From assembly GCF_019312595.1 (NCBI RefSeq), contig NZ_JAHWDQ010000001.1, positions 1,412,788 through 1,476,787 of the forward strand: a stretch of DNA of 64,000 nucleotides, in the 5' to 3' direction. The position numbers were made by a program, and so were the translations under genes. Below the pieces are notes generated by a model. It made no database searches. It saw only the letters and a list, made by a program, of their open reading frames with translations, and was not told where the DNA came from. Positions 19,119 to 35,790 of this stretch are shown piece after piece (the stretch's first letter is position 1; each line of letters opens with the position of its first letter). Source of the DNA: Zhongshania aquimaris. GTDB lineage: Bacteria > Pseudomonadota > Gammaproteobacteria > Pseudomonadales > Spongiibacteraceae.

Positions 19119-20102
19119 TTAATGACTGAATTTCTGCCGATATGACCGTGGCGTCAGACCCGTTTTACGCTGAAATAAACGATTAAACGAACTGATATCG
19201 GCATATCCGATACGACGCATTATTTGCTCAGACGACATACCGGTGCTTTCCAATAGTTTTTTAGCCGCTTCAATACGCAAATTTTGCAAATAGCTATTGG
19301 GTGTATCACCCACTGCTTCTTTAAAACGTCGCATCAATGTTCTGGAGCTGACATGGCATTGCGTGGCAAGGGCATCCAAGGAAAACGGAGACGTGAGATT
19401 TTTCTCAAGATGATCCTGCGCCGACAGTACCAGAGCATCACTGTGCTCCTTTTGCCTTGGCAATATTAAATACGGCGTTTGCTGGGTTAAATTGGTATCG
19501 ACCAATAATGTTTTGGCGCATAAAGACGCCACGGCTTTACCCATGTAGCGCTCAACTAAAATTAAAGCTGTGACCATTTCAGCGCCATTTGCACCGCCAG
19601 TTATTAGACGTTTTTCATCGACCACTAACTCGCCCGCGCGCAATTCAATATCGGGGTAACGCTGCCCAAACTGTTCCGCCAACCACCAGCTCGTGGTGGC
19701 AGCCAAACCACTCAACAAACCGGTTTCTGCCAATACGAAACTACTCGTGCAATGGGCGCAAATAATACAACCATTGGCGTACTGGCGACTGAGCCAGCTC
19801 ACAATAGCGCTCATCGCCAACAATTTGTGACTGAAGGCTTTGCCGCCTGGATAATTCATCGCAGGTAGAACAATTATACTTCCTTCGTCGAGATCTACTA
19901 AGGCGCCGTCGACGGCAACCCGCAACCCCGAAGCGGTTCTAACCGGCGCACCGTCCTCGGATAAGACTTGCCACTCAAAAACACCGTCCTGCCGTTTGTA
20001 CTGCTCACGCCAATGGGAGTTTGCGACTAAATATAAATCCTGAGGGTTGGCCAAGCTTCCCGCATAGCAATCTTCGTACGCTAGCACATAGACCTTAGGC
20101 AT
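19119..20102 (-). CDS. GlxA-type transcriptional regulator (DJ-1/PfpI-like domain plus AraC HTH)
   Basis: A 327-residue regulator. Residues 1-210 form a DJ-1/PfpI-like sensor (PKVYVLAYEDCYAGSL; SIIVLPAMNYPGGKAF; IICAHCTSSFVLAETGLLSG with the nucleophile-elbow cysteine in CAHC); residues 225-327 are an AraC DNA-binding domain (LATQCHVSSRTLMRRFKEAVG; MRRIGYADISSFNRLFQRKTGLTPRSYR). It is divergent from the nitronate monooxygenase-like gene (145-base gap), which is its likely target. It converges with the AraC gene at 19067; between them GCCGG and CCGGC flank a T-rich loop, too weak to call a terminator. Confidence 0.9.
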   Translation of the reverse strand: MPKVYVLAYEDCYAGSLANPQDLYLVANSHWREQYKRQDGVFEWQVLSEDGAPVRTASGLRVAVDGALVDLDEGSIIVLPAMNYPGGKAFSHKLLAMSAIVSWLSRQYANGCIICAHCTSSFVLAETGLLSGLAATTSWWLAEQFGQRYPDIELRAGELVVDEKRLITGGANGAEMVTALILVERYMGKAVASLCAKTLLVDTNLTQQTPYLILPRQKEHSDALVLSAQDHLEKNLTSPFSLDALATQCHVSSRTLMRRFKEAVGDTPNSYLQNLRIEAAKKLLESTGMSSEQIMRRIGYADISSFNRLFQRKTGLTPRSYRQKFSH

Positions 20103-20246
20103 TTTTCACTCCACTATGCTCAACGCCATCTCAAGCCCAAGTGTCACTATCAACGTATTTAATGTCAATACAGACACTACCCGGCGCTGGCGCAAGCCTA
20201 TAAAGTACGCTTTCCAAAAAGGCCTTCCAAGAAGAGTATTACGACT

Positions 20247-21233
20247 ATGTCCCTCCCCGAACTGCTCAAAAATCGACTGCAATTGCCCGCGGTTGCCGCC
20301 CCCATGTTCCTGGCATCTGGCCCAGAGCTGGTCATCGAAACCTGCAAGTCCGGTATGGTTGGCTCTTTTCCCGCATTGAATCAGCGCAGCAGTGATGGGT
20401 TTGAAGAGTGGCTCAACACCATAAATACAGCGCTTGCAAAATTTGAACAGGACACGGGCAAAAGAGCGGCACCGTTTGCGGTAAATCTGATCGTCCACAA
20501 AACCAATCCTCGTCTAGAAGCAGACCTCGCCTTATGCGTAAAACATAAAGTACCGATGATTATTACCTCACTCGGTGCAGTTAAATCAGTTATTGATGCA
20601 ATCCACGGGTATGGCGGTTTGGTATTCCACGACGTCATCAATGCTCGTCACGCTCGCAAAGCCGCAGACGCGGGCGTAGACGGCTTGATCGCCGTTTGCG
20701 CAGGTGCAGGTGGCCATGCGGGCAGCACCAATCCCTTTGCACTGGTCGCCGAGATACGTGAATTCTTCGATAAGACGCTTTTGCTAGCGGGTGCTATTTC
20801 AAAGGGTAGTGATATTGCCGCTGCACGCATGATGGGCGCCGACCTCGCCTATATGGGCACACGGTTTATCAATACCCAAGAAAGCTTGGTACAGCCTGAA
20901 TACAAGCAGATGATCGTAGATTCCATGTCCAGTGACATCGTCTACACGCCAAATATCTCCGGGGTATTCGCCAATTTCCTCAAACCCAGCATTGTGAACG
21001 CGGGACTAGATCCTAGCAATCTGGAAGCTAAAACAGATATTGATTTTGGTGAAGAGTTAGAGGTAGATGCCGACCACAAAGACGGAGACAAAGCGGGCGG
21101 CGCATGGAAGCAAATTTGGTCTGCGGGCCAGGGCGTTGGCGCGATACACAATATTCCAACTACAGCCGAACTGGTGTCAACGCTGATAGAAGAATATCAA
21201 AGCGCAGCAGCATCATTTAATAAGCCAAACTAA
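20247..21233 (+). CDS. Nitronate monooxygenase-like FMN oxidoreductase
   Basis: A 328-residue TIM-barrel flavoprotein of the 2-nitropropane dioxygenase/nitronate monooxygenase family. Visible: N-terminal PAVAAPMFLASGPELVIETCKSGMVGSFPALN, the active-site stretch GAGGHAGSTNPFALV with the catalytic His, and the phosphate-binding loop LLLAGAISKGSDIAAARMMGADLAYMGTRF. Such enzymes oxidise nitronates such as the toxin propionate-3-nitronate, or in some cases reduce enones. AAGAAGAG precedes the ATG. Regulated probably by the divergent GlxA-type gene. Confidence 0.9.
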   Translation: MSLPELLKNRLQLPAVAAPMFLASGPELVIETCKSGMVGSFPALNQRSSDGFEEWLNTINTALAKFEQDTGKRAAPFAVNLIVHKTNPRLEADLALCVKHKVPMIITSLGAVKSVIDAIHGYGGLVFHDVINARHARKAADAGVDGLIAVCAGAGGHAGSTNPFALVAEIREFFDKTLLLAGAISKGSDIAAARMMGADLAYMGTRFINTQESLVQPEYKQMIVDSMSSDIVYTPNISGVFANFLKPSIVNAGLDPSNLEAKTDIDFGEELEVDADHKDGDKAGGAWKQIWSAGQGVGAIHNIPTTAELVSTLIEEYQSAAASFNKPN

Positions 21234-21246
21234 CATGTAGCTTAAC

Positions 21247-21280
21247 AACGCGCGGTCCCGCTATCGAGGCACCGCGCGTT
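21247..21280 (+). terminator. Probable terminator after the nitronate monooxygenase-like gene
   Basis: AACGCGCGGT (21247-21256) and ACCGCGCGTT (21271-21280) form a perfect 10-base GC-rich stem with a 14-base loop, 13 bases after the stop codon. The following T-run is short (TTTC including the stem end), so efficiency is uncertain. Confidence 0.6.
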
Positions 21281-21413
21281 TCAACCCAGCCCCACAAACT
21301 GTAATGTGATGGTTACGGCTATTTCTTCAATCACTTAGCTTCAGGCGCGCATCTTCTAAACAACTCACAAACGCAACTCACAGCCTTACTGCCTAATACG
21401 TTAAATCAGTGAT

Positions 21414-21851
21414 CTATTGCTTAACAATAAGCTCAATTTCCAGCCGCTTTTGCGCAGTGAGTGAATTGCTGACAATACAAATTTTCTCCGCTTTAGCCAG
21501 CAGTGTTTCTGCTTTCTGGCGCGAGGCCTCTGAATCTAAGGTCAGCGCGACTTTAGTAACAATCTCGGTAAATTGCATTGCCCGCTCGACCTTATCGAGT
21601 ACGCCGTCTGTCGTGCAACGGATGGCCTGCCATTCCAGCTTCGCGATAGAGGCAACCGTTCGAAATGATAAAACAAAGCAATTCGCCGCCGCAGCCAATA
21701 ATAGTTCCTCCGGCGACCATTTATCGCCCGGACCACCAAATTGGCTCGGTGCATCAACGTCTAATGTAGGTAAATGATCGGCAGAGACCTGCAAATGGTT
21801 GTCTGGCTTCGCGTTGACTACAACTGAATAGTGATGGGGCAAATTTTCCAT
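21414..21851 (-). CDS. OsmC/Ohr family protein
   Basis: A 145-residue OsmC-fold protein, a family of thiol peroxidases active on organic hydroperoxides. The two conserved cysteines are visible in AAANCFVLSFRTVA and AEKICIVSNSLT, and FGGPGDKWSPEELLLAAAA is the family N-terminal signature. Length is typical. A T-rich strip and AAGGAATGACCC lie before the start. Transcribed alone. Substrate unknown; a role in peroxide defence is inferred from family. Confidence 0.88.
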   Translation of the reverse strand: MENLPHHYSVVVNAKPDNHLQVSADHLPTLDVDAPSQFGGPGDKWSPEELLLAAAANCFVLSFRTVASIAKLEWQAIRCTTDGVLDKVERAMQFTEIVTKVALTLDSEASRQKAETLLAKAEKICIVSNSLTAQKRLEIELIVKQ

Positions 21852-22194
21852 TGGGTCATTCCTTTTTCAGTAATATGGCTAGATTGAAAATAGTGCCGGT
21901 ATACCAGCGCCCTGCCTCTGACACCACATTGTATGATGCCAAGTAAGAAAGACACAGTGATTCCTGCAGGTCACCACCGCATGTATTTCTCAAACGATGC
22001 TCATCGACAGTGAGGGGTACACAATCGCTATAAACCACAGCAGCTGAAAAAGGTTTATATTTACATAAAATAAAGTATTTTCCAGCACATGCAGGCTTTC
22101 TGGTCGCGATTCAGTCTATAGTTAGCAATGCAGATACTGGTGCTTGAGAACAACGTGACGCACCATTTTAAAAGATGAGACGCAGATACAAGCG
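21852..22194. other. Divergent intergenic region
   Basis: About 340 bases between the OsmC (minus) and TPR lipoprotein (plus) genes. A 60-codon minus-strand frame (21856-22038) occurs but has no clear ribosome site or family features and I do not call it. The part 22050-22085 is A/T-rich (TTTATATTTACATAAAATAAAG, split in this description only by context) and may contain the plus-strand promoter. Nothing else recognised. Confidence 0.5.
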
Positions 22195-23322
22195 ATGCCA
22201 ACATTCTCAAAAAATTTACTCGCCGCCGCGATCATGAGCAGTTTACTGGCCTGCTCCAACACCGGCACCCACGACGCTACTCAACTTGATATCCAGCCCC
22301 CCAGCGCTGAAGAAGTTACCGCGCTATTACATCTCAAGAACGGCGGTGAAAACGTTGATGTTAGTGTATATCCCGAAGACAACATACTCGCGCTCAATGC
22401 CGAAATGCGCTACTTCGTAGAAGAGAATGTACCGGCCGCGCTGTCGCCACGCGCCCGCTTAAGCTATCTGCTAGACAGTATGATCAGACCCTCACAGCTA
22501 GGCCTGAAATATGACCCCGGCATTACCCTCAACGCAACTGAAACATTTCAACAGCGCACCGGAAACTGCCTATCACTAACGTCACTATTTATTGCCCTTG
22601 CGAGAGAGGCAAAGCTAAATGCCTATTACAATGAAGTCACTATTCCGCCAAGCTGGGATATGGTTAGCGACAACAGCATGGTGTTCTACAAGCACATCAA
22701 TGCCATCGTTGACTTTGGCAATGGCGACAAAGAAGTAGTCGACCTCAGTGTCGACAATTATGAATACCACTACCCCCAACATCAGGTGAATGAGCAGCAG
22801 GCCGCCGCACAGCATTACAATAATCGCGGCGCAGAGTTTCTCAACAGCGGCGAAAATGACAAAGCACATCTGTATTTTAGACGCGCGCTCTTTCTCGACC
22901 CGAAAGCGGGGCATATCTGGGGGAATTTAGGTACCTTACTTCGCCGACAAGGCCGCACTCACGATGCAGAAATTGCCTATCGGCATGCGCTAACCCTCAA
23001 TGCCAACGACCAAGTAGCTATTAGCAACCTCGGACGTCTTTATAGTGAGCAAGGTCAACACGCAGAAGCACGAAAACTGGAGATAATTGCTGAGAACTTT
23101 CGAAAACAAAATCCCTTTTTACTTTATAGCTATGCAAAGGCTGAGTATGAAAAGGGAGCTTACGAAGAAGCACTAGATTTAATCCAGCAGGCTATTAAGC
23201 TGCGGAAAGATGAATATCGATTTTATAGATTTGCATCTCTAATCTATTTTCGCCAAGGAAATTTAATTCGTGCCCAGCAGTTTTCTGATAAAGCCAGCAG
23301 ACTTAAGCTGAGCTCAGAATAA
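22195..23322 (+). CDS. Lipoprotein with transglutaminase-like domain and TPR repeats
   Basis: A 375-residue predicted lipoprotein: signal peptide with lipobox LLAC (C20). Residues about 70-190 resemble the transglutaminase-like/SirB1 fold: the Cys in QRTGNCLSLTSLFIALARE and the His/Asp region YKHINAIVDFG...EVVDLS are arranged as in a Cys-His-Asp triad. Residues 200-370 contain at least three to four TPR units (YNNRGAEFLNSGENDKAHLYFRRAL; WGNLGTLLRRQGRTHDAEIAYRHAL; YSYAKAEYEKGAYEEALDLIQQAI). Whether it is an active protease or a scaffold is not known. Codon use becomes more A/T-rich near the 3' end. The ribosome site is weak. Confidence 0.8.
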   Translation: MPTFSKNLLAAAIMSSLLACSNTGTHDATQLDIQPPSAEEVTALLHLKNGGENVDVSVYPEDNILALNAEMRYFVEENVPAALSPRARLSYLLDSMIRPSQLGLKYDPGITLNATETFQQRTGNCLSLTSLFIALAREAKLNAYYNEVTIPPSWDMVSDNSMVFYKHINAIVDFGNGDKEVVDLSVDNYEYHYPQHQVNEQQAAAQHYNNRGAEFLNSGENDKAHLYFRRALFLDPKAGHIWGNLGTLLRRQGRTHDAEIAYRHALTLNANDQVAISNLGRLYSEQGQHAEARKLEIIAENFRKQNPFLLYSYAKAEYEKGAYEEALDLIQQAIKLRKDEYRFYRFASLIYFRQGNLIRAQQFSDKASRLKLSSE

Positions 23323-23337
23323 GATATTAACAGACAC

Positions 23338-23360
23338 AAAAAAGGCGCCAACCGGCGCCT
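23338..23360 (-). terminator. Rho-independent terminator of the TonB receptor operon
   Basis: On the minus strand AGGCGCC and GGCGCCT form a 7-base GC stem around GGTT and are followed by six T. It lies 40 bases after the receptor stop codon. The plus-strand TPR gene ends 15 bases away but lacks a T-run in its direction. Confidence 0.85.
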
Positions 23361-23399
23361 GATTTAGCAAATCCTTTGCTAAAAACGTTTAAGAATTTA

Positions 23400-26039
23400 T
23401 TAGTATTTCCAGCTCAGGCTTAAACCCACGCTAGTACCGACTTCTTGCTCAAGAATTTTGACGTTAGTACCGCTGCTATTCTTTTGCTCAAACTCGCGGC
23501 TTGAATCCAATAGATTCGTTACCTTGACTTTAAGTGAAAGATTTTCAGTTGGGTAGTAATTGTAAATTACATCCAGCGAGCCAAACGGCTGCTCAAACGC
23601 ATCGTCATTACCCGAAGTACCAGCAAAGAAAATACGCTCACTAGATATGTTGTACAGTATAGATGCACTGTGACGTTCATCTGGCGAATCGTATCCCAAT
23701 GACGCGTTAACAACATATTTAGAGTGCCCGGTTAGGCGACGATCCGTATTAGTCACTTCATTGTTACTAGTGATGGCAATTTCCGAATCACTCAATGTTA
23801 CGTTACCCGAAAGGAACAAGCCCGCCGGTAATGTTTTAAGGCCCTCAAATTCAACGCCGTACACTTCACCCGAATCGCCGTTGATGTAACGCAATACCGT
23901 GTCATCATCTGAACCAGCGCCCTCAACCTGCTCAATCGGCCGTTCTAGATCTTTGTAAAACAGCGATACCGTGAAGTTATCACCGCCGTCATAATAGAAC
24001 TCACCACGCAAATCGAAGTTACTAATATCCGTTGTTTGTAACCCTGGGTTACCAAAAACCCGGACATTTAGCTCGGGATCAATATATGCGACATCCGCTA
24101 ACTCACGAAGATCAGGACGAACTACCGTCTCACTCGCACTAAAGCGAATTTGAAACTCATTGGCACCCAGCAAGCTCATACCCGAATAAGTCACGGCAAA
24201 ACTTGAGTAGATATCATCATTCTGAACAGCAAACTTCTGATTGGGATCTTGCAACTGCTCAATTAACTGCTGATTAAACACACCGGTAAAATCGAGAAGG
24301 TTCACCGGCAACACAGCCTGCTGATACTCCTCCCAACGGGCGCCCAATGTAATGCGCCACTCTTCAGTCATCCGAAAATCTAAACCGCCGTATACCGCCC
24401 CTATCTTCTGAGCTGCAACGTAACTTTCATTACCGAATCCAGATCCCATCGCAAGATCAAAAACATTATTTAAGTCATTGATTCGCTCATCGGTGAATAC
24501 CGTTTGCGGGGTACCGACCGTGGCATTCGTACCGATGTTCGCGGTATAGCCGTAGTACTCTCGAGTTTTTTCTGAGTTCCACCAACCACCAGAAACGATA
24601 AGTTCGCGACCGTCAATATCGATTGGTAATTCAGCACGCCCACCCCAGCTCTCCACATTATCTTCCAATGCCAGAAACTCAAACTGGCCAGCGGTAGACG
24701 ACTGTGAAATGAAAGGGGTTTCTGGCGATGTGTTTCTATCGATAGAACCGGAAAAACTCGTCGCATTGGGAACATTTGTTGTGGCTTGAGCATCCGAGTA
24801 AAACCATTCAAAGCTCAACATTTCAAGCACTGGCACTGGCGAGAATTCGCCCAAACGATGGCTACCCGAAACTTGCGTCAGCTCGAGCTCACGCTCTTCT
24901 AAGCGAGTATCATAATTAACTCTGGGACGGTTTTCTGATGCGGGATTATTGCTAGAAAATCCAGAGGTAATACTCGCCTCGTCAGCGTCGTTTTGGATAA
25001 CATAATGACTCAGCTGTATTGTATTATCTTCGGCGTACTCCGCGCCCAATACAATTGCCAAGGTTTTTCGCAGTTCGTAAACAGTCCGCTGAGACTCAGA
25101 GAAGTTATCGCTCGGATTACCGATACTACGTTTAATCTGATTTTTATTACGATATTCTTCATCGTAACCCCAATTTAAGGACGCGCCGAGTACTAAGTCG
25201 TCACTCACATCCCACGCGTTGCCAAGATCAATTTTGATATCACGATCAGGATCTAGCTTGCCTTGGTTTAATGCCACATTGCGATTTAAAGATAGAATTA
25301 AATCGCGCTGCACTTGCTCCGCTTCTAAACGACTAATAGCGTTACCAGCGGCATTCTCAATATCAAAGATGTTGCTTTGCGACAAATCGCCTTTATATCG
25401 ACTAATTGCGTTTGTTAACGCCTGCGGCATTGATCCCGAATTATCGGAATAGGTTAATCCGTCATCACTTTCGGTATTAAATCCTGTACCAATGCTAAGT
25501 GCTGCAACAGGCCCGCTTGGCACACTTCGAGTCCGAATATCAATCGCACCACCGCCAAAGTTAGCTGGCAGTTCCGGTCCCCACGATTTTTGAACCTTCA
25601 GAGATTCAACAATGCTTGAAGGGAACAGATCCAAAGGAATAACGCTACGCGCCAAATCAGGCGACGGCACGGCCGCACCATTAACTGTTACGTTGCTATA
25701 GCGCTCACCAAGACCACGTATATAAATAAATTTACTGTCTACTAAAGTAACACCGGTTACTCGACGCAAAGCAGCTCCAATGGTTGAATCACCAGCACGT
25801 GCGATGGCTTCAAAACCCAGAAAATCAGCCGAATAAGGTAATTCCAGACGCTCATCAGTCAAAGAGGCAGCAACACTCTGTAATCGACCGACCACGACCA
25901 CTTCCTCTAGCGAAGCCGGCGAGAATTGCTCGCTGGTATCTACGGCGACGCTCTGAGCCAAAGCCGAGCTGATCAGTCCGCTGCTTGCCACTGCTACAGC
26001 TACAGAGAGCTGCTTTCGCGCAAATCGTTTAATTAGCAT
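23400..26039 (-). CDS. TonB-dependent outer-membrane receptor
   Basis: An 879-residue receptor that imports a ligand across the outer membrane using TonB energy. Signal peptide ends around residue 28 (SALA-Q); a TonB-box-like EEVVVVG is at 45-51; the plug has YIRGLGERYSNVTVNG and PSSIVESLKVQKSW...PANFGGGAIDIRTR; the barrel follows and ends in a terminal aromatic (SWKY). The R-G-L-G-E-R-Y form of the plug is found in receptors for carbohydrates, peptides or unknown ligands rather than in classic siderophore receptors. ATG at 26039 (SD AGGA) is preferred over an in-frame TTG two codons earlier. Downstream of a lipoprotein gene with a 113-base hairpin-rich gap; probably one operon under the Pho-box promoter at 27.9 kb. 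Confidence 0.92.
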   Translation of the reverse strand: MLIKRFARKQLSVAVAVASSGLISSALAQSVAVDTSEQFSPASLEEVVVVGRLQSVAASLTDERLELPYSADFLGFEAIARAGDSTIGAALRRVTGVTLVDSKFIYIRGLGERYSNVTVNGAAVPSPDLARSVIPLDLFPSSIVESLKVQKSWGPELPANFGGGAIDIRTRSVPSGPVAALSIGTGFNTESDDGLTYSDNSGSMPQALTNAISRYKGDLSQSNIFDIENAAGNAISRLEAEQVQRDLILSLNRNVALNQGKLDPDRDIKIDLGNAWDVSDDLVLGASLNWGYDEEYRNKNQIKRSIGNPSDNFSESQRTVYELRKTLAIVLGAEYAEDNTIQLSHYVIQNDADEASITSGFSSNNPASENRPRVNYDTRLEERELELTQVSGSHRLGEFSPVPVLEMLSFEWFYSDAQATTNVPNATSFSGSIDRNTSPETPFISQSSTAGQFEFLALEDNVESWGGRAELPIDIDGRELIVSGGWWNSEKTREYYGYTANIGTNATVGTPQTVFTDERINDLNNVFDLAMGSGFGNESYVAAQKIGAVYGGLDFRMTEEWRITLGARWEEYQQAVLPVNLLDFTGVFNQQLIEQLQDPNQKFAVQNDDIYSSFAVTYSGMSLLGANEFQIRFSASETVVRPDLRELADVAYIDPELNVRVFGNPGLQTTDISNFDLRGEFYYDGGDNFTVSLFYKDLERPIEQVEGAGSDDDTVLRYINGDSGEVYGVEFEGLKTLPAGLFLSGNVTLSDSEIAITSNNEVTNTDRRLTGHSKYVVNASLGYDSPDERHSASILYNISSERIFFAGTSGNDDAFEQPFGSLDVIYNYYPTENLSLKVKVTNLLDSSREFEQKNSSGTNVKILEQEVGTSVGLSLSWKY

Positions 26040-26067
26040 AATCAAAATCCTAAGTGCTCAGGAAAAT

Positions 26068-26136
26068 GCCCTCACAAGCGGAGGGCGTTCTAGCGCTGTA
26101 CTTGCGGGCCGCAACCCGCATTTCCTGTGAAACAGG
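26068..26136 (-). promoter_or_regulatory. Three consecutive hairpins between the lipoprotein and receptor genes
   Basis: In transcript order (minus strand): CCTGT/ACAGG with a 3-base loop (26124-26136), TGCGGG/CCCGCA (26103-26120) and GCCCTC/GAGGGC (26068-26086), the last followed by ATTTTCC. They could be a leaky terminator or mRNA-stabilising structures that give more lipoprotein than receptor. Interpretation is inference. Confidence 0.45.
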
Positions 26137-26152
26137 TACTACTTTTTAATAC

Positions 26153-27838
26153 TTAGGGATTAAGAGGAGCGCTTAAACCTACAGTCCAGCCAGCCAACCA
26201 GTCGTCGCCGGCATTTGCGCCACCAAGGTAGGTTGGTGTTTCGAAGTAAGCGTCAACCGCAGCCACATCGGTAAGTTGGGTTGCTTGGTCGAACACTGCG
26301 GTGCCATCAGCTTTAGTCAAAGTTGCAGCCGTTTTGTAACCGCGGCTACCAACACCACCAACAATCAAACTTTGCGCTGGAATATCGGCGCCACTTATAA
26401 CCACGTTATTAACGTTGCTGTTTGCAGGTGTATCCGCATTACCACCACCAGCCAACCAATTGTTAATATCGAACGTATCAACTCTGTTGCTTGCCTTCGT
26501 AGGCTCGCTACAAGCTATAAGGTTACTGCTTGCCTTACTTACACCGTCCTGCGCCGCTTTAATCGTTTGTGGACCTTCCGTGTTATCTAACTCAAAGCAC
26601 TCGTTACTTGCCATGTTTACTGCGTTAGAGGTAACAATAGAGTTGTACATTTGGAAGAAAACGCCTTCGCGAAACAACGGCCCTTCGGAATCACCCTTAG
26701 AGGTAGCATTGACACCACCGTTTTCATCGATACTTGATGTAATACAAGTCATGTTAGAGATGATCATATTAGTTGTTGGCGTAATCGCGTCACTACGTCC
26801 GCCACCGGTATTATCACCTTCGATACAGCGATTAGCCCCTGAGGTGTGAACAACAACAGCGTACTGAATCATGCCGTTGTAGCCCTCAGAGTAATCGATT
26901 GAATCATCCCCGACGTTAACCGCAACGATGTGATCTGCATTAACAGCGCCACCGAAGAATTCAAAACCGTCATCTTGCGAGGTATAGGCTTGCAGGTAGC
27001 TTAGGGTCGTTCCACTACCAACACCGTTAAATGTAAATGCGTTAAGCTCGTTACCGTCGACAACCTCGAAACCTGCGTGCTTCACAACCACATATTTCAT
27101 TACACCAGAGCTCTCAGCGTTGTTGTTACCACCGTAGGTCGCTGGCTGCCCCTCTGCTTCTTGGTTACAGTTATGCGGGTTATTCGCAGTGGCAGTGAAA
27201 TCACTAACTGCACCTGTACCTGAACCAGTTGCAGTACCGTCATGACACTTGTTAGTCATACCGTTACCGTTGATTTGAATACCGCCCCACAGACCGCGAT
27301 CATCTTCAGTCGCAACGCCATCAATATCTTCGTCGGCAGTGAACGTGATTGGTGCGCCCTCAGTACCGTTAGCAAAAATTTGCGAACCGCGGGTAATACG
27401 CACATAGCTATCTGGACGTTTAAACACCATGGTGACGCCAGCTTCAATATTTAACTTTGTGCCTTCGCCTTCTTGCAGAATTGGCGTACCTGATGCGGCC
27501 GCTTGGCTATCTACGTCCTCACCAATAAAGAGGCTGTCGGCAAATTCATGCACGCCTGAGATCGCAGAGAAAGTCACTTCGTCAGCAGTGATCGGATTTG
27601 TAGAGCTAACAAAGCTGGCAGAATAAAAGCAATCTGCACCCACTACCTGACCTTGGAATGTGTTGCCATTCTTAACATAAGACGCACACGGATTATTGTT
27701 GTTGCCACCGCCGTTATTCGTGCTGTTATCTTGACTATTATCAATGTTAGTAGGGCTTAAATTAATATCGCCGCCACCGCCACAAGCAACAAGCAGTAGG
27801 GCTGATGACATTGCTGTCAGTGCAAAAAGCTTTTTCAT
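26153..27838 (-). CDS. Large lipoprotein with beta-helix-like repeats, partner of the TonB receptor
   Basis: A 561-residue predicted outer-membrane lipoprotein: signal peptide with lipobox LVAC (C19), then a low-complexity linker (CGGGGD, NNGGGNNNNP). The mature part is rich in Gly, Asn, Asp, Thr and has short beta-strand/turn alternation resembling a parallel beta-helix (RGLWGGIQINGNG; GVMKYVVVKHAGFEVVDGN; SYLQAYTSQDDGFEFFGGAVN; SIDYSEGYNGMIQYAVVVH). Paired cysteines (e.g. PCASYV/ADCFYS, RCIEGD/MTCITS) suggest disulfides. ATG at 27838 has GGAG 9-12 bases upstream; the frame extends seven codons further. It is the first gene of an operon with a TonB receptor and is preceded by a tandem Pho box. 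I do not recognise a characterised family; it probably captures substrate for the receptor. Confidence 0.8.
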   Translation of the reverse strand: MKKLFALTAMSSALLLVACGGGGDINLSPTNIDNSQDNSTNNGGGNNNNPCASYVKNGNTFQGQVVGADCFYSASFVSSTNPITADEVTFSAISGVHEFADSLFIGEDVDSQAAASGTPILQEGEGTKLNIEAGVTMVFKRPDSYVRITRGSQIFANGTEGAPITFTADEDIDGVATEDDRGLWGGIQINGNGMTNKCHDGTATGSGTGAVSDFTATANNPHNCNQEAEGQPATYGGNNNAESSGVMKYVVVKHAGFEVVDGNELNAFTFNGVGSGTTLSYLQAYTSQDDGFEFFGGAVNADHIVAVNVGDDSIDYSEGYNGMIQYAVVVHTSGANRCIEGDNTGGGRSDAITPTTNMIISNMTCITSSIDENGGVNATSKGDSEGPLFREGVFFQMYNSIVTSNAVNMASNECFELDNTEGPQTIKAAQDGVSKASSNLIACSEPTKASNRVDTFDINNWLAGGGNADTPANSNVNNVVISGADIPAQSLIVGGVGSRGYKTAATLTKADGTAVFDQATQLTDVAAVDAYFETPTYLGGANAGDDWLAGWTVGLSAPLNP

Positions 27839-27895
27839 ATTTACTATCTCCGAAACCAACTCTAAGGATTTTCTAGGATTGAATTTATGTAGCGT

Positions 27896-27951
27896 ATGGT
27901 AGGGAGACTTGGTGACAGATATGTGAATAGTATGTTGCAGTTATGTGACAC
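27896..27951 (-). promoter_or_regulatory. Tandem Pho box with -10 element (PhoB-type promoter)
   Basis: Read on the minus strand, four 7-base units follow each other with exact 11-base spacing: GTGTCAC (27951-27945), CTGCAAC (27940-27934), TATTCAC (27929-27923) and CTGTCAC (27918-27912), separated by the A/T-rich 4-mers ATAA, ATAC, ATAT. This is the PhoB box layout (CTGTCAT plus 4 A/T bases, repeated), present twice. Ten bases after the last unit comes TACCAT (27901-27896), a 4/6 match to the -10, the standard distance in PhoB-activated promoters where the Pho box replaces the -35. The lipoprotein ATG follows 57 bases later. Confidence 0.75.
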
Positions 27952-28058
27952 GTTGTGAACGGAAACACTTTGTTCATTTTTACGTAGAGACTAATGCGCA
28001 CAGAGAATTAAATAGCGCTATAAAAACCGCCTGGCTAGGAATGCGGAGTACACAAACA

Positions 28059-28086
28059 AAAATGCCGCTGTAAACAGCGGCATTTT
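28059..28086 (-). terminator. Rho-independent terminator of the hfq-purA gene cluster
   Basis: AAAATGCCGCTG (28059-28070) and CAGCGGCATTTT (28075-28086) form a perfect 12-base stem with a 4-base loop. On the minus strand it ends in TTTTTGTTTG, 25 bases after the purA stop. Confidence 0.92.
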
Positions 28087-28111
28087 AACTTTCTAACATC
28101 AGCTAAATTGC

Positions 28112-29425
<1,314 letters not shown>

Positions 29426-29457
29426 TTAATACACTGACTCACAACCACCGAGCCCAA

Positions 29458-30627
29458 TTAATTCAGCGATACAACACACCACTGTTCTTGCTCTTTGCGA
29501 ACTACTCGGTCACATGCCGCGTCGGCATCTTGTCCTGGCAGGCCGCAAATTACCTTTTCACCCGACTCGCGCAAGGACTGCACAAACTGCCACTGCGTAG
29601 GACTCGGATCGTAAGGTGCAAATATCGCCGCCGGCTCAGTCACCGGAGACAACAAGCCCAATAGAGCTTTTAAATCGATACTAAAACCAGTAGCCGGACG
29701 TGCGCGCCCGAATACTTCGCCGATGTCGTCATAACGACCGCCCGACGCCAGCGCCTGACCGTGTTCGCGAACCAGTGCAGAAAACACAACGCCCGTGTGG
29801 TAGTGGTAACCACGCAGCTCGGCCAGATCAAAATAGAACTGCAAGTCTGGAATACGCAGCGCCAAGGTTTCGGTTAGCTGCTCTAAACTGGCAATCGCCT
29901 CAATGGCTTCCGGAATATCAGCAAAAACCTGCCGACCTTTGGCCAATACATCTTTGCCGCCGTGCAATTCATTTAATGCCAACAGGTGCCCAGCGACACC
30001 GTCGCTCACCGGTAAATTCGCCACAAAAGCGCGCAATTCAGTCTTGGCTTTGCGCTGCAATATATCGAAATAACTCGCTTCTTGTTCAGCGTTTAGCGCT
30101 GCTGCATTGATCACCGCACGGTATACACCCACGTGACCGGTATCTAAGGTAATGCCATCAAGTCCGGCAACCCGCAGGGTTTCCAGCATCAGGCAAATAA
30201 TTTCTAAATCACTGGCGGGGCTGTTATCGCCGTACAATTCAGCGCCCAACTGAATGGGAGAGCGCGAGGCCAATGGCTTTTTAGGTTTGCTATGCAGCAC
30301 ACTGCCGGCGTAACAAAGCCGGACCGGGCCTTCTCGACCCAAACTGTGCGCATCAATACGTGCAGCTTGCGGAGTGATATCGGCACGCAAGCCCATCATT
30401 CTACCAGTGAGCTGGTCGGTTACCCGAAAGGTCAACAAATCAATGTCGCTACCCAAGCCCACCAATAATGATTCGGTGTATTCCAACATAGGTGGAATCA
30501 CCAACTCATAGCCCCAGCGTTTATAGAGGTCTAAAAGTTGCCGACGCAGTGCTTCAACCTGTGCCGCTTGTGCGGGCAACAGTTCCTCAACACCGTCCGG
30601 GAGTAGCCAACGATCTACCGAAGTCAT
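29458..30627 (-). CDS. hisZ: ATP phosphoribosyltransferase regulatory subunit HisZ
   Basis: A 389-residue paralogue of histidyl-tRNA synthetase that lacks aminoacylation and activates the short form of HisG in histidine synthesis. Class II synthetase core features: RWLLPDGVEELLPAQA at the N-terminus, MLEYTESLLVGLGSD, motif 2-like MMGLRADITPQAARI and YYHTG in the C-terminal part. The anticodon-binding domain of HisRS is absent or shortened, as expected. The presence of HisZ implies a short HisG elsewhere in the genome. Located between the DUF2065 gene (35-base gap) and purA. Confidence 0.95.
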   Translation of the reverse strand: MTSVDRWLLPDGVEELLPAQAAQVEALRRQLLDLYKRWGYELVIPPMLEYTESLLVGLGSDIDLLTFRVTDQLTGRMMGLRADITPQAARIDAHSLGREGPVRLCYAGSVLHSKPKKPLASRSPIQLGAELYGDNSPASDLEIICLMLETLRVAGLDGITLDTGHVGVYRAVINAAALNAEQEASYFDILQRKAKTELRAFVANLPVSDGVAGHLLALNELHGGKDVLAKGRQVFADIPEAIEAIASLEQLTETLALRIPDLQFYFDLAELRGYHYHTGVVFSALVREHGQALASGGRYDDIGEVFGRARPATGFSIDLKALLGLLSPVTEPAAIFAPYDPSPTQWQFVQSLRESGEKVICGLPGQDADAACDRVVRKEQEQWCVVSLN

Positions 30628-30662
30628 ACGCGATTTTTGCTCTCTTGATCAGCCATCAGACT

Positions 30663-30848
30663 TTATCGCAGCACACTCAATAAAATGAGGCCCGATAACA
30701 TACTTATTAAACCGACAATGCGAACAGTTTTAGTGTCCATATCTGCCATCCGGTATGCTAGTAACCGCCATCTTTCTGGACTCAGAAACGGCAGCAAACC
30801 TTCAATAATAAGTACCAGACTGAGAGCCACTGACAGTTCCTGCCACAT
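30663..30848 (-). CDS. DUF2065 small membrane protein
   Basis: A 61-residue protein with two hydrophobic helices: LSVALSLVLIIEGLLPFLSP and IVGLISMLSGLILLSVL, split by a charged loop (ERWRLLAYRMADMDTKTVR). This is the DUF2065 pattern normally found between hflC and hisZ/purA. Family members begin M-W-Q-E-L, so the ATG at 30848 is chosen over the longer frame to 30890. Function unknown. Confidence 0.9.
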   Translation of the reverse strand: MWQELSVALSLVLIIEGLLPFLSPERWRLLAYRMADMDTKTVRIVGLISMLSGLILLSVLR

Positions 30849-30934
30849 GCGCTTTGCCTGCCACAAACATAAAAAATCCGCGCTGCCCAAAGACGTTTCG
30901 GTCTCGGATCAGCCCGGATGTGTGAATGATACCA

Positions 30935-30958
30935 CACTCCCCGCTATAGCGAGGAGTG
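30935..30958 (-). terminator. Hairpin after hflC, possible weak terminator
   Basis: CACTCC/GGAGTG continued after one mismatch by CGC/GCG closes a TATA loop. It starts 10 bases after the hflC stop on the minus strand. The downstream sequence (TGGTATCATT) is only mildly T-rich, so partial termination or mRNA protection are both possible. Confidence 0.45.
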
Positions 30959-30968
30959 AAAGGGTAAC

Positions 30969-31844
30969 TTATCGCTTATCCGCACCCTGCTTCAGGTAGC
31001 GGAAGAACTCGCTTTTGCTGTCGACGACCAAGAGGTCACCTTTATTACTAAATGACGCCCGATACGCTTCCAAGCTGCGAACAAAAGCATAAAACTCGGG
31101 GTCGGCACTATAAGCCGCCGCGTAGGTGCGGGCTGCTAATGCGTCGCCCTCACCGCGCAACACCTGCGCGTCACGGTAGGCATTTGCACCGATAACAGTG
31201 CGCTGACGATCAGCCGTCGCACGAATTTTCTCAGCCAATTCGCGACCAGTAGAGCGATGCTCGCGCGCTTCGCGCTCACGCTCAGACTTCATCCGGTCAA
31301 ACACCGACTGGCTAACCTGCGATGGCAGATCGATACGTTTAACTCGGACATCAACTAACTGGATACCAAATTCGCTAGTAGTGATCTCGTTGAGGTCGCG
31401 AGTTAAATCGGTCATCAACAGATCGCGCTCACCCGACACCACTTCGTGGAAGGTACGCTCGCCGAACTTATTTCGCAGACCAGTATTAATACGCTGAGCT
31501 AACAAACCCTCGGCGCGAACTTCCTCACCGTTGGTCGCGGTATAGTACTTTTGGGTATCGATAACACGCCATTTAGCATAGAAATCCACGTCTAGCGGCT
31601 TTTTCTCAATGGTTAAAAAACGCTGCGTCGGCGCATCCAAGGTCAAAATACGACGCTCGAATTTACGCACCATATGCACAAACGGTGTTTTAATATGCAG
31701 ACCCACTGCGATATCGGGGTCGACGATTTCACCAAACTTGAGCAGTACGGCCCGTTCAGTCTCACGCACGATATACAAAGAATTGAACGCCAGCACCAAC
31801 GCGCCCAACAATAAAATGACAACGGTAAAAGAACGATTACCCAT
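30969..31844 (-). CDS. hflC: HflC, SPFH-domain regulator of FtsH protease
   Basis: Inner-membrane SPFH (band 7) protein that forms a large cage with HflK around FtsH. The chosen 291-residue form starts MGNRSFTVVILLLGALVLAF, an N-terminal membrane anchor, then VRETERAVLLKFGEIV and the band 7 core, and a long helix (MKSEREREAREHRSTGRELAEKI, natural). The frame is open further upstream, but the ATG at 31844 comes one base after the hflK stop, the usual arrangement for this pair. C-terminal residues SEFFRYLKQ are conserved. Confidence 0.97.
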   Translation of the reverse strand: MGNRSFTVVILLLGALVLAFNSLYIVRETERAVLLKFGEIVDPDIAVGLHIKTPFVHMVRKFERRILTLDAPTQRFLTIEKKPLDVDFYAKWRVIDTQKYYTATNGEEVRAEGLLAQRINTGLRNKFGERTFHEVVSGERDLLMTDLTRDLNEITTSEFGIQLVDVRVKRIDLPSQVSQSVFDRMKSEREREAREHRSTGRELAEKIRATADRQRTVIGANAYRDAQVLRGEGDALAARTYAAAYSADPEFYAFVRSLEAYRASFSNKGDLLVVDSKSEFFRYLKQGADKR

Positions 31845-31845
31845 G

Positions 31846-32985
31846 TTAGCGACCCTCTCTGCGAGTGGTTTGCGTATCGCGGCGTAACTGCTCAACCACC
31901 TTATCTGTCAACGCACGTATATCGACTTCTTCTTGAGAACCCTTGCGAACAGTCGCAGATTTATCCATTAATTTATCGATAGGCAGATACATCATATTGT
32001 TGCCGCCATCGACGTCGACCATCACTTTAGTCGCGTCACTGTATAAGGTTTCTAAGGCATCAATATACAGACGCTCGCGAGTCACCTGAGGTGCCTTGCG
32101 ATACTCAGTAAATAAGTTTGCGAATCGCTGCGCCTCACCCTCTGCCCTTGCCACAACCTGCTCTTTATACGCCTGCGCTTCTTCTAGTTGGCGCTGAGCC
32201 GCACCGCGCGCTTCAGGAATAATGCCATTTGCATACGCTTCGGCTTCGTTCTTTAAACGTTCGCGATCCTCTTTGGCTCGTGTTACGTCATCAAAAGCGT
32301 CCTGCACTTGCGACGGCGCTTGGGCATCTTCAATATTAACCTTGGCTACCAAAATACCGCTTTGGTAAGTATCCAAATACGCCTGCAGGCGCTGCTGAGT
32401 ATCAACCGCAATCTGTTCGCGGCCTTCCGTAATAACCTGATCCATTTTTGAACTGCCCACCACATGACGCAGCGCACTTTCCAGCGCGTGCTCCAAGCTG
32501 AGCTCAGGACTTTTTACTTTGAGAAGAAAGTTGGCTGGGTCAGCGACGGTGTATTGAACCGACAAGGCGACATCAACAATATTTTCATCTTCAGTCAACA
32601 TTTGACCGCGGCTAGCCACTCCGCGCACTTTGGTCACATTTATTTTGTTCACTTCATCAATCAGCGGTGGATTCCAGCGCAGACCTGGCATTACCGTTTG
32701 GTGATACACGCCCAGACGCAAGACCACTGCCCGCTCCTGCTGGTCGACCTGATAAAAGCCGAACAAGCCCCAGACAATAACCGCTAGTACGCCAAAGATA
32801 GCAAACGTACTCGCGCCTATTTTGACGTCCCCACCATTACCTCCACCGGGCTTTTTACCCCCGCCAAAAATACCGTTGAGCTTTTCCTGAAGCTTTTTTA
32901 GCGCCTCATCTAAATCCGGCGGCCCTTGGTTTTTACCACCCCAAGGATCGTTGTCTTTGCCACCACCCGGCTCATTCCAAGCCAT
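31846..32985 (-). CDS. hflK: HflK, SPFH-domain regulator of FtsH protease
   Basis: A 379-residue partner of HflC. The N-terminus has the typical Gly/Asn/Pro-rich cytoplasmic part (MAWNEPGGGKDNDPWGG; GIFGGGKKPGGGNGGD), one membrane span (FAIFGVLAVIVWGLFGFY), then FYQVDQQERAVVLRLGVY and the SPFH domain with NIEDAQAP and the charged coiled-coil region ending in a basic tail. Follows hflX (103-base gap) and precedes hflC (1-base gap). Confidence 0.97.
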   Translation of the reverse strand: MAWNEPGGGKDNDPWGGKNQGPPDLDEALKKLQEKLNGIFGGGKKPGGGNGGDVKIGASTFAIFGVLAVIVWGLFGFYQVDQQERAVVLRLGVYHQTVMPGLRWNPPLIDEVNKINVTKVRGVASRGQMLTEDENIVDVALSVQYTVADPANFLLKVKSPELSLEHALESALRHVVGSSKMDQVITEGREQIAVDTQQRLQAYLDTYQSGILVAKVNIEDAQAPSQVQDAFDDVTRAKEDRERLKNEAEAYANGIIPEARGAAQRQLEEAQAYKEQVVARAEGEAQRFANLFTEYRKAPQVTRERLYIDALETLYSDATKVMVDVDGGNNMMYLPIDKLMDKSATVRKGSQEEVDIRALTDKVVEQLRRDTQTTRREGR

Positions 32986-33088
32986 AGCCCTCTCCTATGT
33001 TATCGTATTGTTCGCTATTAAATTATCACGACCGTATTGGCCTTCGCATAGAATCAGCGATCCAACGACTTAATGTCCGGCGGGCAGT

Positions 33089-34405
33089 CTAGCAGAATTC
33101 TTCCTGCGTGCTAACCGGACGCGTCGAGTGCAAAAGCGCTTCGCTTACCGACTCGTTCGACAAAAATCGTTGCCAATCCGACTCCAGCAAGCGCAGCTGT
33201 AAATTCTGCGAGCCATCGTCATTGAGTTTTTCATCAAGCACTGCGCCGAGCCCGTATAGTAAGGCCCGCAATCGGCCTTGACCCGCAGTCAGGGTAATAG
33301 TTGTTTCACAAATTTCATTACCGAGAATGTCACTTAAGGCCTCATAAAACAGCGCCAAGCCCTTCGAGTCCCGCGCTGAAAGCCAAACTCGCACCGGCCT
33401 GCCGGTATCGTCACGCTCTATACGCGGTTCGACATCAACCAGGTCAGTTTTGTTATACACCTCAAGCAGCGGAATATCCCCCGCGCCGATTTCCGCTAAC
33501 ACACCAACCACTTGCTTTATATTATCGTTGCGCTCAGGGTCCGCGCAGTCAACAACGTGGATCAGCAAATCCGCCATCGCGGCCTCTTCCAGCGTTGCTC
33601 GGAATGCCTCGACCAGTTTATGGGGGAGATGACGGATAAAACCAACCGTATCAGCCAAAATAACGGGGCCGACGTCACCTACCTGAATACGCCTAACCGT
33701 CGGGTCAAGCGTCGCAAACAACTGGTCAGCAGCGTAGACATCTGAGGTTGTCAGCACATTAAAGAGCGTCGACTTCCCCGCGTTGGTATAACCCACTAAA
33801 GATAAGGCGGGGATCTCAGCACGACGCCGCGCCCGTCTGGCCTGTTCGCGCTGCTTGCGAACCTTTTGCAGCCGCGCCTGAATACTCGTAATACGCGCAC
33901 GCAATAGTCGGCGGTCCGTTTCAAGCTGAGACTCACCCGGCCCTCGCAAACCGATACCGCCCTTTTGCCGCTCAAGATGCGTCCAGCCCCGCACGAGACG
34001 TGTGGACATGTGCTGAAGCTGAGCAAGCTCAACCTGCAATTTACCCTCATGGGTATTCGCACGCTGAGCAAAAATATCGAGAATCAAACCAGTACGATCA
34101 AGCACGCGACACTGCAGCTCGCGCTCGATGTTGCGTTCTTGACTGGGAGAAAGGGCGTGATTAAACAGCACGATCTCGCCTTCATTGGCGATTAGCGCTT
34201 CGCGAATTTCTTCGAGCTTACCGGTACCGACGAATAGTCGAGCATCCGGCCGCTGACGCGAGCCGGTGATGAACGCAACTGGGTCTCCCCCTGCGGAGGT
34301 GACCAGCTGCACAAATTCGTTGGAATCTTCTCGCTCGTTCTCACTGTGAAAATCCAGATGGACGAGAATTGCACGCTCACCGGAATTAGGTCTTTCAAAT
34401 AGCAA
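33089..34405 (-). CDS. hflX: HflX, ribosome-associated GTPase
   Basis: Binds 50S subunits and splits stalled ribosomes, e.g. after heat shock. The 438-residue product has the HflX N-terminal domain (ERAILVHLDFH; FVGTGKLEEIREAL; FNHALSPSQERNIER), the linker GGIGLRGPGESQLETDRR and the G domain with G1 GYTNAGKS, G3 DTVGFI and G4 NKTD. The start appears to be TTG at 34405: Pseudomonas HflX begins similarly (x-x-F-E-R), GAGG lies 8 bases upstream, and no ATG gives a full N-terminus. Lies 28 bases after hfq, as in most gammaproteobacteria. Confidence 0.95.
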   Translation of the reverse strand: MLFERPNSGERAILVHLDFHSENEREDSNEFVQLVTSAGGDPVAFITGSRQRPDARLFVGTGKLEEIREALIANEGEIVLFNHALSPSQERNIERELQCRVLDRTGLILDIFAQRANTHEGKLQVELAQLQHMSTRLVRGWTHLERQKGGIGLRGPGESQLETDRRLLRARITSIQARLQKVRKQREQARRARRRAEIPALSLVGYTNAGKSTLFNVLTTSDVYAADQLFATLDPTVRRIQVGDVGPVILADTVGFIRHLPHKLVEAFRATLEEAAMADLLIHVVDCADPERNDNIKQVVGVLAEIGAGDIPLLEVYNKTDLVDVEPRIERDDTGRPVRVWLSARDSKGLALFYEALSDILGNEICETTITLTAGQGRLRALLYGLGAVLDEKLNDDGSQNLQLRLLESDWQRFLSNESVSEALLHSTRPVSTQEEFC

Positions 34406-34433
34406 GGACGAACCTCAATTCAAAGAATTGCCG

Positions 34434-34694
34434 TTATTCAGCGTCTTCTTGTTCTTCGTCATCTTCTGGCGGGTGCGCCATCGGCAAACGAACAACACGA
34501 GACGGTACAACGGTAGAAATGGCGTGCTTGTACACCATTTGGCTAACCGTGTTTTTCAACAGCACAACAAATTGGTCGAAGGACTCAATTTGGCCCTGAA
34601 GCTTGATACCGTTAACCAGATAAATCGATACCGGAATACGCTCCTTGCGAAGAATATTCAGATAAGGGTCTTGTAAGCTATGCCCTTTTGACAT
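34434..34694 (-). CDS. hfq: Hfq RNA chaperone
   Basis: Hexameric Sm-like protein that pairs small RNAs with mRNAs. The 86-residue product has Sm1 ([21 protein letters not shown]) and Sm2 ([12 protein letters not shown]) and an acidic tail ([11 protein letters not shown]) instead of the long E. coli extension. The ATG at 34694 has a strong GGAGG 7 bases upstream; the open frame to 34742 is not used. The 124-base space to miaA probably holds a promoter. Confidence 0.98.
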
Positions 34695-34818
34695 GGTGTA
34701 GCCTCCTGTATGCCCAAACCGGGCGTTGATAAAACCTATCAATAAAAAGCAGCAATATGGATCACAAACCTGCGAATTAGTTCGTAATCAGACTGGGTAA
34801 TTTGCAGTATACCGTAAG

Positions 34819-35790
34819 TTAATGTCCTACGGCAGCGCCATATCGCATCAAGACCTTATTTAGCTGGGATTCCGTATTTTCGCCAGAATCTAACCACATC
34901 AAATCTGACCAACCCCGCAACCACGTTAATTGGCGCTTAGCTAACTGACGGGTGGCAATTAAGGCTCTCTCAAACGCCTCGTTCTTGTCATAATCACCCC
35001 GCAAATGCTCCCAGACCTGGCGATAACCCACCGCCCTAATCGATGGCAAGTCGGGATGGAGGTCCCCACGCGCCATTAAGCCCGCAACCTCATCAATAAA
35101 ACCGCTATCAAACATTTGTCGCAAGCGCTGTTCAATACGACGGTGCAATACCGCGCGATCAGGTGGCGCAATCGCAAATTGATGTACTTGATAGGGCAAT
35201 GTCTGCGCCAACTGTCTAGCCTGCCATTGGGTCATCGTAACGCCGCTGATTTGGTAAACCTCCAGCGCTCTCGATAGTCGCTGGGAGTGGTTGGGGTGGA
35301 TACGCGCCGCCGATTCCGGATCTACAGCAGCCAATTCCGCATGCACCGCCGGCCAGCCATTTTCCGCCGCCAACGCACTAATTTTGGCCCGAACCGCGGG
35401 ATCGGCACTGGGCATGTCGGCCAAGCCTTCCATTAAGGCCTTGAAGTACAGCATGGTACCACCCACCAACAGCGGTATACGTCCCGCTGACGCACTAGCC
35501 GCCATCGCCGCGAGCGCATCGCGACGAAATTGCGCCGCCGAGTAGGGTTCTGATGGGTCGCAAATATCAATCAACTGATGGGGGTAGCGCGCCAACGTAT
35601 CTGCATCAGGCTTTGCACTGCCAATATTTAATCCGCGATAAACTAGGGCTGAATCCACACTAATAAGATCGCAGGGCAAATGGTCGCTTAACGCTAAGGC
35701 CAAATCGGTTTTACCCGCTGCGGTCGGCCCCATTAAAAATATGGCCGGCGGTAAATCACTTTCGGTATCTAAGGATGAGCTAGCGACCAC
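34819..35790 (-). CDS. miaA: tRNA dimethylallyltransferase MiaA
   Basis: Adds a dimethylallyl group to A37 of tRNAs reading UNN codons. P-loop GPTAAGKT at 21-28, substrate region [16 protein letters not shown], and C-terminal [14 protein letters not shown] are the family marks; 323 residues is the usual size. Start is GTG at 35790, which overlaps the mutL end by 11 bases, implying coupling. Confidence 0.97.

Follow-up and report, generated by a model that had tools for sequence, protein, structure and literature searches.

The window, by which we mean the whole 64,000-nucleotide stretch of Zhongshania aquimaris DNA that was analysed, carries a lipoprotein gene and a TonB-dependent receptor gene side by side on the minus strand. 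A purA-like gene and a gene for a TPR protein flank the pair. The lipoprotein gene (positions 26153–27838) encodes 561 amino acids with the lipobox LVAC (assigned by eye), and it is of the ElpS type by gene order. The ATG at 27836–27838 was taken as its start. The TTG at 27859, where the listed open reading frame (ORF) begins, is the less likely start because the genus loci share the ATG. The receptor gene (23400–26045) encodes 881 amino acids from a TTG, with an ATG two codons in. The intercistronic region (26046–26152) contains a GC-rich hairpin that is found in the predicted folds of all 17 genus loci (the window, L010–L018 and L022–L028). The whole-region fold energies, calculated without a shuffle control, are −26 to −50 kcal mol−1, and the hairpin may perhaps be a partial terminator or an mRNA stabiliser.

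Two terminator-like hairpins on the minus strand, both resting on a consensus match only, follow the receptor gene (23343–23360) and the upstream gene (28059–28086). The scan gave nine such hairpins, compared with 4.8 in shuffled sequences. The upstream gene is an ORF at 28112–29404, recognized as purA by inspection. At the other end, the TPR protein is encoded on the plus strand (22195–23322) and faces the receptor gene; its start is lipoprotein-like and its transglutaminase-like match weak. A similar ORF is seen by eye in the equivalent position in L039–L041. We examined the ORFs between 20000 and 36000 of the window, and for this stretch the statement of the first-pass annotation that no phosphate gene lies nearby holds. 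No gsp (type II secretion) gene was recognized by eye among the same ORFs.

The region between the hairpin of the upstream gene (28086–28059) and the lipoprotein gene holds the feature of main interest. When the letters were re-read from the window, the minus strand from 27951 to 27896 showed four 7-base units in 11-base steps, separated by the 4-base spacers ATAA, ATAC, and ATAT. The units are GTGTCAC (unit 1, 27945–27951), CTGCAAC (unit 2, 27934–27940), TATTCAC (unit 3, 27923–27929), and CTGTCAC (unit 4, 27912–27918). Unit 4 is the full consensus, and unit 3 is the weakest. A gap of 10 bases (27902–27911) leads to a −10 hexamer, TACCAT (27896–27901), and 57 bases (27839–27895) separate the hexamer from the ATG. 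The first-pass annotation had described this layout as a tandem Pho box, and its description is exact to the base. In promoters activated by PhoB, the boxes take the place of the −35 element, and about 10 bases separate the box from the −10 element. The consensus scan that also gave the hairpins found no sigma-70-type promoter on the minus strand, as would be expected if PhoB replaces the −35 element. The E. coli PhoB promoters are likewise described as 7-base direct repeats with 4-base spacers (PMC10294691, PMC4415409), and their spacing is stated to be strict (PMC10294691). The window differs from them in having four tandem units, of which unit 3 is degenerate.

The array matches CTGTCA[CT] at 22 of 28 positions and is the unique top place on both strands of the window, the runners-up reaching 18. 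In a Markov simulation of 60 windows, one place scored at least 22, which corresponds to 0.017 per window. A matrix for E. coli PhoB was built from the 58 ChIP-seq sites in the table of PMC10294691. With this matrix, the 18-mers of units 1–2 and units 3–4 rank first and second of 127,966 window positions, at 17.7 and 17.3 bits. Both exceed the upper quartile of 16.8 bits that the E. coli sites themselves give (median 15.3). Scored as a pair 22 bases apart, the two 18-mers give 34.9 bits; the next pair, an overlapping one, gives 7.4, and the next elsewhere 7.0. Across the genus loci, the same matrix gives 9.6–18.7 bits for the first site and 10.9–18.5 bits for the second.

A second matrix was derived from the genus itself, using the phoB, pstS, and pstC promoters of 17 loci each (51 places). 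Four places below 11/14 were dropped (L135 for pstS; L126, L132, and L140 for pstC), leaving 47 sites, 31 of them distinct. Three pstS and three phoB promoters of the sister genus were left out, as was L169, a divergent phoB locus of the genus. At L154, the distance of the phoB site is not the usual one. This matrix is not blind because its sites were chosen by their resemblance to the consensus. With four units, the window array scores 21.8 bits and the next place 2.6; with three units, the array is again the top place of the window. With two units, a plus-strand place at 28297, inside the purA-like ORF, beats the array (17.0 versus 12.6 bits). Unit 3 is poor by this measure (−1.5), yet the 18-mer of units 3–4 is the one ranked second of 127,966 by the E. 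coli matrix. Scoring with a PhoB matrix had been named as a check in the first-pass annotation, and it places the array first in the window with the E. coli matrix and with the four-unit genus matrix. The pattern CTGTCACN4CTGTCAC, searched genome-wide with three mismatches, gave 242 matches against 332 for the reversed control. These numbers carry no evidential weight, and the pattern was used solely for locating the phoB and pstS boxes.

PhoB is not the only regulator of its kind, and regulators of the OmpR family often use direct repeats of about 10–11 bases. Another member of that family could therefore sit on these repeats, and the 32–60 candidate stretches per genome in a first PhoB look presumably include many that belong to such regulators. 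However, the sequence of the units, beyond their spacing, is the best fit to E. coli PhoB sites in the window, and the four units fit the phoB and pst promoters of the genus. We regard control by a different OmpR-family protein as very improbable, and control of the operon by PhoB, as judged from the promoter sequence, as very likely. Confirmed PhoB boxes are reported to occur also at genes without obvious phosphate regulation (PMC4415409).

We searched 21 genomes of the family Spongiibacteraceae for the lipoprotein. The main type is found in 20 of them, comprising 17 of 18 Zhongshania genomes and all three of a sister genus; the single Zhongshania genome without it is 84 % complete. The receptor adjoins the lipoprotein at each of these 20 loci. 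Ten of the 17 genus lipoproteins, the window's own included, are 73–100 % identical to the window's protein. The other seven are 38–45 % identical and were taken as orthologues because a receptor adjoins each of them. All 17 genus loci have a top four-unit score of 20–23 of 28, and the 56 columns from unit 1 through the −10 hexamer align without a gap, with unit 4 always 10 bases from the hexamer. Positions 2, 3, and 6 of unit 1 (T, G, and A), TCA of unit 3, GTCA of unit 4, and TAnnAT of the −10 hexamer are invariant. Pairwise identity over the 17 loci, calculated without gaps, averages 0.74 for the units and 0.80 for the −10 hexamer. Lower means are seen for the spacers (0.59), the 10-base gap (0.54), and the 45 bases downstream (0.52), and the 60 bases upstream show only the chance level (0.27). 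The alignment of orthologous upstream regions that the first-pass annotation called for has thus borne out its reading, with the units and the −10 hexamer conserved at every one of the 17 genus loci. The arrays of the three sister-genus loci (20–22 of 28) stand farther from the start and are probable counterparts. In one genus genome (G014; L028 and L169), the search gave no match to PstS and PhoB is divergent (65 % identity), and a 23/28 array nevertheless precedes the lipoprotein.

The array was picked out by eye from 64 kb and one of its units is poor, which speaks for a functionless chance arrangement. Against this stand the 0.017 places expected per window and the register kept in every genus locus amid variable flanks, and we give an origin by chance almost no weight.

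We also asked whether a paralogous lipoprotein might be a second Pho gene. This was rejected, as all ten loci counted (L029–L038) lack both a receptor and an array. Their four-unit scores are only 15–19, and none has a receptor match within the 1.5 kb flanks. The count covers these ten loci, and eight further genomes with paralogue matches fall outside it. A two-unit match of 12/14 is present at L038. The paralogue loci are a useful negative control. In the Z. aquimaris genome itself, the paralogue (L035, C5:411739) has neither receptor nor Pho array, and the gene after it encodes a LytS-like histidine kinase (by eye).

The host has the regulatory system that PhoB control would need. Its genome carries phoB, phoR, pstS, pstC, pstA, pstB, and phoU in this order, with boxes at phoB, pstS, and pstC. 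PhoB scores 341.7 bits against TIGR02154 (cutoff 296.2) and PstS 291.2 bits against its family model (cutoff 206.6); the other names were given by inspection. The pst–phoBR locus lies at approximately 141–150 kb of the same contig, on which the window begins at 1,412,788.

The 17 lipoprotein promoters were also turned into a sequence-only model, in a 56-base and a 40-base version, and run against the Z. aquimaris genome; scores were obtained for 150 of 947 and 150 of 1071 candidates. Among the scored candidates, the 56-base model returned the lipoprotein promoter itself (61.4 bits) and then four weak matches. The best of these, at 13.2 bits, has urease- and HupE-like genes as neighbours. The other three precede pstC by approximately 26 bases (12.9 bits), the ATG of a Porin_O_P gene by approximately 81 bases (12.5 bits), and the gene of a lipoprotein that has a choice-of-anchor I domain by approximately 77 bases (11.1 bits), the distances being measured by hand. 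The 40-base model gave the pstC, Porin_O_P, and choice-of-anchor I matches again, plus one inside an unidentified ORF. The non-self matches have E-values of 0.18–8.5. Because these values are weak and the scoring covered 150 of about 1000 candidates, a shared regulon is suggested by the matches, which are not proof of it. The Porin_O_P gene (L067, C1:533366) has PhoB-like repeats upstream and is likely a phosphate porin of the Pho regulon. The choice-of-anchor I gene (L068, C1:1147859) is lipoprotein-like, also has a DUF7151 domain, and has PhoB-like repeats at the same approximately 77 bases upstream.

The receptor has the plug (PF07715) and the barrel (PF00593), both above cutoff. Its nearest NCBIfam model, TIGR01782, falls under its cutoff, and a PDB sequence search with the receptor gave no match at E 0.01. 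The lipoprotein has no match among Pfam families at E 0.1, nor any above cutoff among NCBIfam families, and a profile of it found nothing in the PDB sequences at E 1. Eight acidic residues are invariant in 34 aligned proteins (D289, D290, E293, D311, D312, D315, E340, and D342), and their conservation suggests a metal-binding or catalytic site. A surface lipoprotein paired with a TonB-dependent transporter is also the arrangement of the SusCD/PusCD systems of Bacteroidota (PMC8115612). The window lipoprotein differs in that no SusD domain was detected in it with Pfam at E 0.1, and we do not place it in the SusD family.

The closest parallel by gene order is in Caulobacter crescentus. ElpS (CC0170) is described as a surface lipoprotein produced under phosphate scarcity, and elpS adjoins cc0171, a TonB receptor gene; the gsp genes lie downstream of both (PMC2996285). 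The same report names homologues of ElpS in Shewanella, Bacteroides, Xanthomonas, Sphingomonas, and Hyphomonas. The Caulobacter phosphate response is described as including type II secretion and various TonB-dependent receptors (PMC11208175). The window pair is likened to ElpS/CC0171 as a lipoprotein gene and a TonB-dependent receptor gene that adjoin. It differs in having no gsp gene in 20000–36000 and in its promoter with tandem PhoB-type boxes. The cc0171 gene is reported to be constitutive and not induced along with elpS (as data not shown in PMC2996285), whereas the layout in the window suggests that both genes may be transcribed together. From the gene order and this published link, the pair probably belongs to the ElpS/CC0171 type, and its lipoprotein probably to a family already linked to phosphate starvation. 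The proposal of an undescribed member of the Pho regulon was therefore too strong, because ElpS is described as induced by phosphate starvation (PMC2996285) and the pair is of its type by gene order; the reading of the promoter as a PhoB promoter stands. Phosphate depletion is reported to induce four lipoproteins of Flavobacterium as well, two of them downstream of TonB-dependent transporters (PMC8115612). This report describes the F. johnsoniae lipoproteins FI, FII, and FIII, with the neighbouring transporters (Fjoh_3856/3857 and Fjoh_0545/0546), and places FII in a phoBR gene cluster. FI–FIII are given as 31–36 % identical to a low-phosphate-inducible Caulobacter lipoprotein. Likened by description, these pairs and the window pair both consist of a lipoprotein and a transporter; Flavobacterium belongs to another phylum. 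What is new is the conserved tandem PhoB promoter of the pair and the linkage of the pair to phosphate genes across phyla. In the accessible text of the open-licence PMC literature, we found no report of a tandem promoter of this pair and, going by titles, no paper on phosphate regulation in Zhongshania.

The linkage was seen when more distant homologues were compared. With a profile of 34 lipoproteins, relatives were detected at E 1e−20 in 51 of the 398 Pseudomonadota genomes searched, and 20 regions from 19 of these genomes were then taken. In seven of the 20 regions (L110–L115 and L123), gspD or gspE follows the pair. Distant pairs stand directly before gspC-gspD-gspE-gspF, the same order as at CC0170–CC0171. 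The gsp calls come from BLAST clusters and were checked with Pfam for GspC, D, E, and F in L110 and for GspD in L112 and L123. Two of the 20 regions have phoBR at the pair, directly adjoining in L107 and one ORF off, with pstS in addition, in L109. Boxes were scored in 14 of the 20 regions, the lipoprotein ORF being unlabelled in L113, L114, L115, L117, L118, and L119. Eight of the 14 distant lipoprotein promoters score at least 20/28, and the other six score 14–19. The 237 control ORFs of these regions have a 95th percentile of 17, a 99th percentile of 20, and a maximum of 22. In a scan of named genomes, a receptor homologue adjoins the lipoprotein in 18 of 25 loci, and none is seen in the other seven. 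In Verrucomicrobiota, phosphate genes (PstC, PstS-like and/or Porin_O_P) follow the pair in four of six loci. PstC is found in L046, L048, and L053 and PstS in L053 (NCBIfam); a PstS-like binding protein is found in L047 and Porin_O_P in L047 and L053 (Pfam). Of the other two loci, L056 has a type I phosphodiesterase in place of the phosphate genes, and L063 is a contig of 3.3 kb.

We hold with high confidence that the Zhongshania operon is a lipoprotein/receptor pair of the ElpS type under PhoB control. The mechanism we propose begins with phosphate scarcity, when PhoR would phosphorylate PhoB. Dimers of PhoB would bind units 1–2 and units 3–4, standing where a −35 element would be, and the bound protein would recruit RNA polymerase to TACCAT. 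Transcription would then run through both genes as a two-gene operon, first the lipoprotein and then the TonB-dependent receptor, and the GC-rich hairpin between them could set the level of the lipoprotein above that of the receptor. In Zhongshania, the products would correspond to Caulobacter ElpS and CC0171. The lipoprotein may bind a phosphorus-containing substrate at the cell surface, and the receptor may draw on TonB energy to import it, a step that would precede an OprO/P-type porin and PstSCAB.

The import of a phosphorus compound by the receptor is, in our estimate, about evenly poised. Two other functions would keep the PhoB part of this explanation. In the first, the lipoprotein acts outside the cell, and the receptor serves its release or signalling rather than phosphorus import. 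This agrees with the report that overproduction of ElpS raised alkaline phosphatase activity in the supernatant, that purified ElpS had none, and that its release needs type II secretion (PMC2996285), and also with the gsp genes by the pair in seven of 20 regions. The window, however, has no gsp gene among its ORFs in 20000–36000 (by eye), and the pst and Porin_O_P neighbours in four of six Verrucomicrobiota loci point to uptake. TonB receptors that have both plug and barrel are, as a rule, transporters. We consider a role outside the cell rather unlikely, though it carries more weight than the other alternatives.

The second function concerns carbon. Here the substrate would be a glycan or another carbon compound, with PhoB control arising from life on algal surfaces or from phosphate–carbon cross-talk. 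In its favour, modelling gave the Flavobacterium lipoproteins a polygalacturonase-like structure (PMC8115612), and the nearest NCBIfam model of the window receptor is TIGR01782, below cutoff. We find this improbable, as the window lipoprotein has no carbohydrate-enzyme domain by Pfam and NCBIfam and several distant pairs adjoin phosphate genes.

Returning to the import of phosphorus, its broadest form would make the pair a cross-phylum, PhoB-controlled outer-membrane importer of phosphorus-containing molecules. A single family would then include ElpS/CC0171, Flavobacterium FII and its transporter, the pst-linked pairs of Opitutaceae, and the Zhongshania operon, and it would supply a high-affinity, TonB-energised step beside the passive OprO/P porins. 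We put this forward tentatively, at slightly less than an even chance. A clean, conserved PhoB-type promoter is now assigned to a kind of pair that, as far as we found, only the Caulobacter and Flavobacterium studies tie to phosphate scavenging, and these scattered reports are suggested to concern one family that extends from Gammaproteobacteria to Verrucomicrobiota. If import is true, it bears on the competition of bacteria for dissolved organic phosphorus in low-phosphate waters.

At most of the homologous loci L077–L088, L091–L093, L097, L099, and L100, two matches to the lipoprotein domain follow each other within a single open frame of approximately 910–980 amino acids.
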